Of a DNA stretch of 64,000 bases, positions 2,208 through 56,459 are shown in pieces (the stretch's first letter is position 1; the number at the start of each line of letters is the position of its first letter). The notes under the pieces are model-generated. The model searched no databases, was not told the origin of the DNA, and saw only the letters and a list, made by a program, of their open reading frames with translations. Origin of the DNA: Thermofilum uzonense (GTDB lineage Archaea; Thermoproteota; Thermoprotei; Thermofilales; Thermofilaceae); the NCBI RefSeq assembly GCF_000993805.1, contig NZ_CP009961.1:1048714-1112713 (forward strand), given 5' to 3'. Position numbers and translations under genes: made by a program.

Positions 2208-2590
2208 CTAGTATGTCTTCTCAGCTTCCCATTCCTCGAGGAGGTCTTCGATCCTGCTTTGATGTTCTTCTAGCTCCCTGAGCATTGCATCAATGCCGTT
2301 GAGTGCCTTCCTGTAGTCTGGCAGGATGCCGGTGTACGCCCTGAAGGCTACGATTTGTGTGCAAGAACTGCGGGTCTAGAGATAAACGCGCACATCAACG
2401 CATGCTTGAACATCACTCACAAGACAGGATACAGCCCGCCCACACCAACGAGAATCGGGACCTATATCTCACACAGCGGAGTCGTATCACTTGCCAAGAA
2501 GAAAGGCAAAATACGTCACCAGGAGCCAGAGAATAACCCCCTAGAAGAGTAACCGGGAGCCCGCCCCAATGGCGCAGAGCGGGTGGCAGT
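2208..2590 (+). repeat. Dispersed repeat copy A, with a TnpB tail still inside
   Basis: This is the longest of four related copies in the window (others at 35811, 46160 and 56236), all in the same orientation. Its left part (2208-2350) reads on the minus strand as an open 46-codon coiled-coil-like frame ending in TAG at 2208-2210. Its right part reads forward as the end of a TnpB-like transposase followed by a GC-rich tail. The tail can fold as a hairpin (CCCGC at 2560-2564 pairs with GCGGG at 2579-2583), as expected for an IS200/IS605 right end. The other copies join the left and right parts and lack the TnpB segment, so A looks closest to the parent element. Exact ends are uncertain by about 20 bases. 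Confidence 0.75.
2344..2552 (+). pseudogene. tnpB: TnpB (IS200/IS605 OrfB) C-terminal remnant, frameshifted
   Basis: Two reading frames together give the end of a TnpB nuclease. One frame at 2354-2374 reads FVCKNCG, the zinc-ribbon CxxCG. The neighbouring frame then reads GLEINAHINACLNI, matching the conserved D/E-x-N-A-x-x-N-I block that carries the last RuvC acidic residue. A frameshift separates the two. A basic tail ending in a TAA stop at 2550-2552 follows. No N-terminal or middle part of TnpB is present, so this is a dead fragment. TnpB proteins are RNA-guided nucleases whose guide RNA overlaps the 3' end of the gene, the very part kept here. It lies inside repeat copy A. Confidence 0.75.
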
Positions 2591-3070: not shown

Positions 3071-4132
3071 GTGAAGATATGGGTAGAAGCGCTTACCCCT
3101 AAACAGATTCTCCTATTTTCTTATATTCAAGACATATTCGGCAGGCAAAATGTGTTTTTAACGACTCGCGATTATGATCTTAACGCCAACCTGGCTAGCA
3201 AGAGATGGTCAAAACACTTTCTTGTAGGCCGCTATCCCGGAGCATCGTCTATAGCCAAAACTCGAGAAAGTATAAAGCGGCAAGAGAAACTTATTGATAT
3301 AGTGTCTTCTGAAAAACCGGACGTTCACCTTACCTTTGTCTCACCTGACTCAGTACGTGTGGCCTTTGGTCTCGGCATACCAGTTATAACTAGTAGTGAC
3401 TCGCCGCACTCAGATGCAGTGTCAAGGCTAACGATTCCTCTCTCTAGGATATTTGTGACGCCTTACTTCCTATTGGAAGATTTTGAAAAATACAATAGGC
3501 TTGTGGAAGTAGTGGGATTTGAAGGAGTTTTCGAGCTAGCATGGATTCTACGTGAAAAACCTGACCCAAAGGTCCCAAGGGAGCTCGGATTGGAGCCCTT
3601 CAGTTACGCGTTAGTACGACCAGGAGAGGAGAAATCATATTACTACCCTTCCCCTGCCTTCGCGACTAGGATGCCTCTCTCTATAGCTAGAATGATTCTG
3701 AGGAGGACAGATCTCACAGTTATCGTGTATCCACGCTATCCGGATCAAGCCTTGCTATATAGAAGACTGCTTTCTAGGTGGAATAATAGGGTAAAGATTC
3801 TTGAAGGGGCTACAGATTTCGTGAGCCTGGAGTACCACGCAAGGCTTGTCATTACAGGTGGTGGCACAATGGCCACAGAGTCCGCGCTCCTCGGAACCCC
3901 TTCAATCTCGACGTATCCCGGCGAGCTAAAAGTTCACAAGTTTATAAGAAAGAGAGGATTCCCACTTTATAAGGCCCCTCTGCCTCAAAGCTTTATTGAA
4001 AAATTATTACTTCTCGAGACAGGACCAGGAGAACGCGAACGATATATCCAGAGAGCTAAGAAAACTTTACAAGACCCCATTAGCGTTTTCGCACGGGAAA
4101 TCACAAGAATTATCAATAGAAATGAAAACTAG
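3071..4132 (+). CDS. DUF354 family protein (glycosyltransferase-like fold)
   Basis: A protein of 353 residues with a GTG start (MKIWVEALTPKQILLF). The pattern matches DUF354, a family of archaea and some bacteria related in fold to UDP-GlcNAc 2-epimerase and GT-B glycosyltransferases. Recognisable parts are the N-terminal Rossmann-like half with DYDLNANLASK, a central SSDSPHSDAV, and the C-terminal GGGTMATESALLGTPSISTYPG nucleotide-binding loop near residues 260-282. The family has no firmly established reaction. Surface-glycan or lipid-linked sugar work is a fair guess from the fold only. It follows a small membrane protein in a likely two-gene transcript. Confidence 0.78.
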   Translation: MKIWVEALTPKQILLFSYIQDIFGRQNVFLTTRDYDLNANLASKRWSKHFLVGRYPGASSIAKTRESIKRQEKLIDIVSSEKPDVHLTFVSPDSVRVAFGLGIPVITSSDSPHSDAVSRLTIPLSRIFVTPYFLLEDFEKYNRLVEVVGFEGVFELAWILREKPDPKVPRELGLEPFSYALVRPGEEKSYYYPSPAFATRMPLSIARMILRRTDLTVIVYPRYPDQALLYRRLLSRWNNRVKILEGATDFVSLEYHARLVITGGGTMATESALLGTPSISTYPGELKVHKFIRKRGFPLYKAPLPQSFIEKLLLLETGPGERERYIQRAKKTLQDPISVFAREITRIINRNEN

Positions 4133-35810: not shown

Positions 35811-36020
35811 ATGGAAGATTCCTGGCCCCGAGGAGGCCCTCAAGCATGCTCCTGTCCTTTTCGAGTCCCCTGAGCGTCGCTTCCATGCTGTCGAGTGCCT
35901 TCCTTTAGTCTAACAGGATGCCCACGTAGGGCCTCACCGAGAAGAAAGATGACACCAGGAGCAAGACACAGCCCTCAAGAGGGGTAGCCGGGAGCCATCA
36001 CCCGGTGACGCAGGGCAGCA
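35811..36020 (+). repeat. Dispersed repeat copy B
   Basis: Second of four related copies. It lines up with copy A on the left (CGAGGAGG, then the minus-strand frame) and on the right (GAGAAGAAAGATGACACCAG to CCGGGAGCC), with the TnpB segment absent. On the minus strand the left half still reads KALDSMEATLRGLEKDRSML in frame, preceded by a stop codon in the same place as in copy C. The element ends a few bases before the stop of the 36023 surface-protein gene, with no gene broken. Confidence 0.7.
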
Positions 36021-45915: not shown

Positions 45916-46159
45916 ACCTGATAGACAGTTATAGAGATCTCTATTAAAATAGGTTTAGGTCTTTGCCAGCTTATAGTTCTCTACAAACGCAACCAAAACC
46001 AAGACTTTAGAATTTTCGCCTCTGGTAGCCAGGCTGGAAAGCCAACCCATGAGGTTTAGAGAATAATCATTGTTGCTTATCTTCTCTATTTTCTTCTCTA
46101 CTTGTTGAATGATTGTTAAACGTTAGTCTGAGGGGTGAGGTTACAGCTTTCCAAAAGAC
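45916..46159. other. Intergenic stretch without a recognised gene
   Basis: Between the aconitase X start and repeat C I see no open frame with coding character, no tRNA and no clear promoter apart from AT-rich sequence around 45945-45960 that may serve aconitase X. Stops occur in all frames. Confidence 0.4.
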
Positions 46160-46374
46160 TGGAGAGTAGAAGATTTCCAGCCCTCGAGAATGCCCTCGAT
46201 CCCGCTTTGGAGTTCTTCCAGCTCCCTCAGCATTACATCGATGCTGTCGAGAGCCTTCCCTTAGTCTTGCAGGATGACAGCGTAGGCCCTCAACGAGAAG
46301 AAAGATAACACCAGGAGCAAGACACAACCCCCCAGAGGAATAACCCGGGAGCCACCCCCCAGTGGTGCAGGCCG
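46160..46374 (+). repeat. Dispersed repeat copy C
   Basis: Third copy. It keeps the best minus-strand reading frame after copy A, KALDSIDVMLRELEELQ and onward to GILEGW, interrupted at one TAA where copy A has a Tyr codon. The junction GTAGGCCCTCAACGAGAAG is identical to copy D and the right end runs to AACCCGGGAGCC. The TnpB segment is absent. It lies in an intergenic region between the divergent aconitase X and CcdA-fusion genes. Confidence 0.72.
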
Positions 46375-46441
46375 GCGAGCTTGGAGATATGAAAACCATT
46401 AAATATCGCTACGTTTCGGTCTGTTGTAGTGAGCTGGTCTA

Positions 46442-56119: not shown

Positions 56120-56173
56120 ATGAGGAACATTGTCGTTTTTCTAGGCCCAGCCGGGAGCGGCAAAACCTCCCTG
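56120..56173 (+). pseudogene. Truncated start of a P-loop NTPase (GPN-like)
   Basis: From the ATG at 56120 the frame reads MRNIVVFLGPAGSGKTSL, a clean first strand and Walker A loop like those of GPN-loop GTPases and related NTPases. After this the homology stops: the sequence becomes a tRNA-end-like segment and then repeat copy D. The open frame runs on only to 56365 through repeat sequence. The rest of the NTPase is not found downstream, so this is a broken 5' end or a duplicate left by an insertion. The exact break is near 56173. Confidence 0.6.
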
Positions 56174-56185
56174 TATAAACCGAGA

Positions 56186-56213
56186 GGTTCTGGGTTCGAA
56201 TCCCGCCGGCTTG
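56186..56213 (+). other. tRNA 3'-end-like fragment, possible integration scar
   Basis: GGTTC-TGGGTTCGAATCCCGCCGG resembles the variable loop, T-arm and acceptor of the tRNA-Ala genes in this window (CCGGGTTCGAATCCCGGCCGG), with one base missing in the stem. No 5' half of a tRNA lies up- or downstream. A 3' tRNA end inside a truncated gene and next to a transposon remnant is what a tRNA-targeting integrase leaves behind. A degenerate pseudo-tRNA is the alternative. Confidence 0.5.
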
Positions 56214-56235
56214 CTCTATATAATCTTGATGGTTC

Positions 56236-56459
56236 TAGTATGTCTTCTCTGTCTCCTATTCCCCGAGGAGGCCTTAAATCCTTGCTGAGAGTTCTTCTAG
56301 CCTATCTGAGAATTACATTTATGCTGTCGAGGGCCTTCCTTTGTTCTGGGAGAGCGCCCGCGTAGGCCCTCAACGAGAAGAAAAAATACGACCACTAGGA
56401 GCAAAACATAACCCTCAAGGGGGTAACCCGGGAGCCCGCCCCAGTGATGCAGGGTGCGG
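56236..56459 (+). repeat. Dispersed repeat copy D
   Basis: Fourth copy. Its left end, TAGTATGTCTTCTC, agrees with copy A, the middle GTAGGCCCTCAACGAGAAG is identical to copy C, and the right end AACCCGGGAGCCCGCCCCAG matches A and C. CCGC at 56436-56439 pairs with GCGG at 56456-56459 as a terminal hairpin. The minus-strand frame (RKALDSINVILR) is broken by a stop. It abuts the tRNA-end scar and the truncated NTPase. Confidence 0.72.

Follow-up and report, generated by a model that had tools for sequence, protein, structure and literature searches.

The window, the whole stretch of DNA analyzed here, is 64,000 nucleotides long (G000:C1:1048714-1112713) and belongs to the closed genome of Thermofilum uzonense, which was searched over its full 1,611,988 bp. 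Four copies (A to D) of a short repeat lie within it, each with a block that reads on the minus strand as a related peptide and a conserved right end on the plus strand (Table 1). The peptides are KALNGIDAMLRELEEHQSRIEDLLEEWEAEKTY* in copy A (genome 1050937), KALDSMEATLRGLEK in copy B (genome 1084563), KALDSIDVMLRELEELQ in copy C (genome 1094895), and KALDSINVILR in copy D (genome 1104999), each found exactly as an earlier reading made from the sequence alone had given it. The open frame of 46 codons with a terminal stop in copy A, and the stop common to copies B and C (D*) where copy A has tyrosine, are likewise present. The interval 46160-46260, to which that reading had assigned the block, is inside copy C but covers only a part of the full mobile unit.

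Table 1. Features of the four repeat copies, in window positions. R1, RNA model of the conserved right end; el, coordinates on the reverse complement of genome 1501200-1504900.
Feature	Position	Strand	Support
Copy A, open 46-codon gene-tail remnant, stop codon at 2208-2210	2208-2345	-	tblastn, residues 110-153, E 1.6e-11
Copy A, tnpB C-terminal remnant and right end	2373-2584	+	77% DNA match to el 3083-3289 of full-length element; right end 2523-2582, R1
Copy B, short unit, gene-tail block on -, right end on +	35814-36018	+	DNA 73%, E 1e-15; right end 35958-36018, R1, E 8e-12
Copy C, 372-bp short mobile unit	46006-46377	+ (orientation from tnpB right end)	Twin at genome 1200292-1200663
Copy C, degenerate C-terminal codons (orf153 residues 114-152), one in-frame stop	46183-46299	-	tblastn, E 4e-7, one TAA
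Copy C, conserved right end (tnpB 3' end/putative omega-RNA scaffold)	46314-46375	+	R1, E 7e-13
Copy D, short unit, gene-tail block on -, right end on +, preceded by tRNA 3' fragment	56230-56457	+	DNA, E 1e-15; right end 56398-56457, R1, E 2e-12; left-end comparison

Copy C is 98.4% identical to its twin over exactly the extent of the mobile unit, with unrelated flanks, and thus moved relatively recently. The left edge of both is TTTAGAATTTT, with no evident target duplication, and the left ends of the other copies differ. Just before copy D, window 56120-56230 contains 18 codons of a P-loop gene (MRNIVVFLGPAGSGKTSL), followed by copy D with a tRNA 3'-half fragment; the gene was apparently cut off by copy D. 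An Rfam search of the window returned tRNAs only.

Copy number and size classes of the repeat

The block is present approximately 40 times in the genome. The DNA of the 46160-46260 block was found in 30 places and that of copy A gave 44 genome matches (best non-self E 1.6e-62), while a search at the protein level gave 40 matches within the same genome, a recurrence far above chance. As the genome paper of T. uzonense 1807-2 gives only two IS200/IS605 elements (PMC4673724), the family seems to be undescribed.

The short copies fall into three deletion classes, with units of approximately 520, 350, and 165 bp in which a gene tail on the left is joined to the tnpB 3' end on the right. The three classes retain el ~284 to 397, 422, or 581 and el 3070, 3080, or 3237 to 3287. 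Within each size class, the deletion junctions are common to several copies, which argues that the shortened forms themselves multiplied.

The conserved right end (model R1) occurs 37 times in this genome and, among 60 relatives, twice in G015 (Thermofilaceae), with one weak match each in G018 and G024 (E 0.01 and 0.03). The consensus fold of the right ends has little covariation, and the term omega-RNA scaffold is accordingly based on their position after tnpB. The TnpB of G015 is 70% identical at the C-terminus. In the same genome (L104:3870-4313, G015:C141), a 42-codon fragment of the gene tail is fused to, and ends, an apparently truncated ORF of the uroporphyrinogen-decarboxylase type. 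A scan of genome contigs found no relative.

Full-length elements and the source of the gene tail

Complete tnpB genes are found in three long relatives of approximately 3 kb (L053, L054, and L055). The minus-strand block of L054 (genome 1501660-1504612) forms the last part of a 153-codon ORF (orf153), and approximately 900 bp of GC-rich sequence separate this ORF from tnpB. The TnpB of L054 has the OrfB_IS605 (PF01385, E 1e-17) and TNB (PF07282, E 1e-18) domains and scores above the cut-off of the NCBIfam model guided_TnpB. The gene carried with tnpB had been read as convergent with it; in all of the full-length elements the two are instead divergent, with the gene tail on the opposite strand and pointing away, and the stop codon of the tail is outermost on the left. 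L053, L054, L055, L065, and L066 also have in common a GC-rich and apparently non-coding sequence (el ~790-1800), up to 1 kb long and approximately 90% identical among them. Several different TnpB genes follow it, as though the leader had stayed constant while TnpB was exchanged.

The predicted structure of orf153 is a helical bundle (helices 39-71, 82-114, and 124-152; mean pLDDT 78). The peptide corresponds to the last predicted helix, so that the earlier label of coiled-coil is fair. Foldseek searches with this model returned generic helical bundles only, none with E below 0.001, and nothing significant was found for orf153 or its source protein, described below, in Pfam, NCBIfam, and PHROG searches.

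The earlier supposition that the block comes from the end of a real gene is borne out by a homologous protein within the same genome. A protein search matched approximately 147 residues of orf153, at 90-91% identity, to the end of a 1403-aa ORF at genome 1399111-1403322 (residues 1256-1403; 91% aa identity, E 4e-78). The corresponding DNA is 93% identical over 441 bp, and the similarity ends only a few bases from the stop codon. The minus-strand peptide of the repeats is thus probably the last, C-terminal helix of this 1403-aa protein, whose gene belongs to a conjugation-type operon.

A block of approximately 36 kb (~1369.2 to 1405.4 kb; the right boundary is approximate) contains the 1403-aa gene and, at its left edge, a TnpB gene; from the sequence, we take this edge to be at the 3' end of a pelota-like archaeal gene. 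The block encodes ParA-like (AAA_31, E 1e-6) and ParB (ParB_N, E 3e-10) proteins, a T2SSE secretion ATPase (E 2e-15), HerA/VirB4-like ATPases (DUF87/HerA, E 5e-10), a helicase, and pilin-like proteins. Conjugation ATPases, partition genes, and a transfer operon are therefore found together in one block, as in an integrated conjugative element; we infer the conjugation-type label from these neighboring genes. PDB sequence searches with the pilin-like and 1403-aa proteins gave no match, and AlphaFold modeled the N-terminal half of the latter too poorly (pLDDT 52) for a fold to be named.

Several other Thermofilaceae genomes searched match the N-terminal half of the 1403-aa protein, and four (G009, G012, G014, and G016) encode complete homologues of approximately 1285 aa. 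The latter sit in the same operon layout, in which a ~264-aa multi-TM protein is followed by the large protein and this by a ~740-aa ATPase; two of the four genomes also have a ~230-250-aa protein upstream. The C-termini of these homologues align with the block (hhalign E 2.6e-5, probability 75%, from few sequences), which indicates that the tail is native to the gene family and that the element obtained it from the gene. Because of these same C-termini, the reverse direction, with the element as donor of the tail to the 1403-aa gene, was rejected.

Codon-position bias provides a second line of evidence for the protein-level conservation proposed in the sequence-only reading. Parsimony changes over 36 codons in 38 copies number 112/101/189 at positions 1/2/3 (Mann-Whitney p = 1e-4). 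Differences shared among copies number 65/49/128 in the long and 99/94/155 in the short copies, a predominance of third positions with p = 4e-10 and 5e-5. It is hardly credible that the reading frame is an artefact that arose by chance in a non-coding transposon end: the stops and frameshifts of the short copies do suggest that the block behaves there as non-coding DNA, but this account is opposed by the third-position predominance, by the existence of the open 1403-aa relative, and by homologues in other genera that read in the same frame.

Differences private to one short copy (22/10/21) are without third-position excess, and stops occur in 5 of 21 short copies compared to 0 of 16 long copies; the peptide of the window copies itself is thus not under selection. 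By the pattern of substitutions, and by a dN of 0.053 and dS of 0.234 for L054 against the source gene, constraint appears to have acted on the source gene, and the window-copy peptides would be inherited and decaying, dead passengers. Apart from the orientation, the earlier interpretation therefore stands: the block is the end of a genuine protein-coding gene, is carried by a tnpB element, and is conserved as protein. It missed, however, that this conservation was inherited from the source gene.

If orf153 were instead a functional accessory protein of the tnpB element, selected for aiding mobility or regulating tnpB, the 153 codons open in L054 with a TATA-like sequence upstream, the predicted helical bundle, and a dN/dS of approximately 0.2-0.3 (L054 against the source gene, dN 0.053 and dS 0.234) would be accounted for. 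We consider this very unlikely, as an identical one-base G-run change (5 to 6 G) breaks the frame in L053 and L055, two of the three full-length elements, as well as in L032, which has no tnpB, the first nine codons of orf153 are antisense of the HerA tail described below, and most short copies retain the last ~40 codons only. The G-run change in these three long copies may mark a slippage site or a repeated mutation.

Junctions and the origin of the repeats

In the full-length elements, the sequence adjoining the gene tail (el 718-770) comes from a HerA-like ATPase gene, of which it is the 3' tail; in the ~36-kb block, this gene lies beside tnpB. The joint between the HerA tail and the gene tail lies exactly at the 8-mer TGCTTCTC, which occurs at only three sites on that strand of the intervening 32 kb: two in the HerA gene (1371382 and 1371539) and one in the 1403-aa gene (1402886). 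The source gene is fused to the first HerA site in L053 and L054, and to the second in L055. The order and orientation tnpB(-), HerA tail(-), and gene tail(+) are colinear between the integrated element and L054 and L055, and mirrored in L053. A 686-aa gene follows directly downstream of the source gene, and ~100-bp pieces of it are preserved in the copies at genome 1018180 and 1577271. These left-flank fragments (L057:1569-1670, genome 1018068-1018169; L055:4780-4872, genome 1577279-1577371) are neighboring, almost adjoining parts of that gene.

The junctions at TGCTTCTC and the colinearity are explained in one step by a deletion of approximately 31.5 kb between direct repeats. The repeats are probably best explained, from their sequences, as MITE-like derivatives that arose by internal deletion and retain both ends of a large element. 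A shift of the transposon end is a familiar route by which passengers are captured: a tnpB element would have inserted beside the 3' end of the 1403-aa gene, and the tail would have been carried off when a later transposition adopted a new left end past the stop codon. It is true that in many copies only a few bases separate the end of the block from the stop codon; however, the other side of the junction is not the end of a tnpB element but the 3' tail of a HerA-like gene of the same large element, joined colinearly at a repeated 8-mer. We regard such capture as unlikely and favor the deletion because it explains both sides of the junction at once.

In the proposed deletion origin, a relative of the ~36-kb element would have lost approximately 31.5 kb between the TGCTTCTC repeats, giving tnpB elements of approximately 3 kb with the two ends of the large element. 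Further internal deletions would have produced the ~520-, 350-, and 165-bp units, and the shrunken forms would then have multiplied around the genome to approximately 40 copies. A mobilizing enzyme may recognize the two ends, as in MITEs, and the peptide would be carried along as a passenger in which the constraint on the source gene is still visible. The ancestor would have been a relative of the resident ~36-kb element, and not the resident copy, because the TnpB and right end of the latter differ from those of L053 and L054.

Mobility and comparison with known systems

No match to the Y1 transposase TnpA (PF01797) was found in the genome, nor was a serine transposase or recombinase. The single tyrosine recombinase gene (PF00589), far away at 174 kb, may encode the housekeeping XerA. 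Elements of the IS200/IS605 type are expected to have a defined left end with a subterminal hairpin, a fixed target motif, and no target duplication. The left-end comparison defined no single left terminus across copies, as two sequences abut tRNA 3' ends, a third is found in copy C, and others occur elsewhere; this variation counts against the deletion origin.

In four copies (L006, L030, L033, and L038; genome 1497452, 1418808, 1300416, and 1316883), a complete tRNA gene (Pro-AGG, Pro-CGG, Ser-GCT, and Leu-AAG) lies immediately before the left end, which its 3' end adjoins, and other copies follow tRNA 3' fragments, which suggests that short copies prefer tRNA 3' ends. It is conceivable, but improbable, that the large element is a tnpB-ended composite transposon, with the tnpB and conjugation-gene sides as its mobility ends and TGCTTCTC as a preferred site of recombination or cleavage, and that it regularly gives rise to miniature satellites, which would exploit the TnpB of larger relatives and insert at tRNA 3' ends. 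The family raises the question of what moves tnpB-only repeats without a recognizable TnpA, one pair of copies being 98% identical.

The operon of the source gene resembles the archaeal DNA-transfer systems Ted and Ced (T4SS homologues; PMC9905601) in operon layout only, with a small pilin-like protein, multi-TM proteins, a VirB4/HerA-like ATPase, and HerA-like and ParA-like genes nearby. However, CedA (6-7 TM) is much smaller than the source protein, which is without a Pfam, NCBIfam, PHROG, or PDB sequence match; the operon proteins did not match CedA/TedA or VirB6 in sequence or structure; and the source block with ParA/ParB looks like a mobile element and not a domesticated locus. Archaeal integrated conjugative elements, such as the Sulfolobales conjugative plasmids and the elements of Nitrososphaeria, are similar in being integrated and in carrying partition genes, secretion ATPases, and a conjugation-type operon. 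The ~36-kb block differs from them in that no integrase was found in it, a tnpB gene lies at one edge, and miniature deletion derivatives are dispersed.

The repeats are also comparable to the MITEs or PATEs of IS200/IS605-IS1341 (tnpB) elements, which are short and non-autonomous, retain a left end together with the tnpB 3' end/right end, form size classes through deletion, and occur many times per genome. As in these, a full-length relative encodes TnpB (OrfB_IS605 and TNB domains) and the short copies have the ends of the full-length element without its genes; the Y1 TnpA that is a further mark of such families was found neither in the element nor in the genome. IS1341-type elements are known to lack Y1 TnpA and do not require it, and its absence here is therefore compatible with membership in a tnpB-only group. 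Unlike known MITEs and PATEs, these repeats have at one end the coding tail of a conjugation-type gene, which runs on the opposite strand, and their full-length relatives themselves appear to be deletion derivatives. MITEs are normally traced to insertion sequences, whereas the ancestor here would be a ~36-kb integrated element with tnpB at one edge. A conserved peptide in a repeat may in this way lead to a traceable history, in which a conjugation-type element of a hyperthermophilic archaeon collapsed via short direct repeats into miniatures that spread, and the family may be described as MITE-like tnpB derivatives that are unusual in their ancestor.
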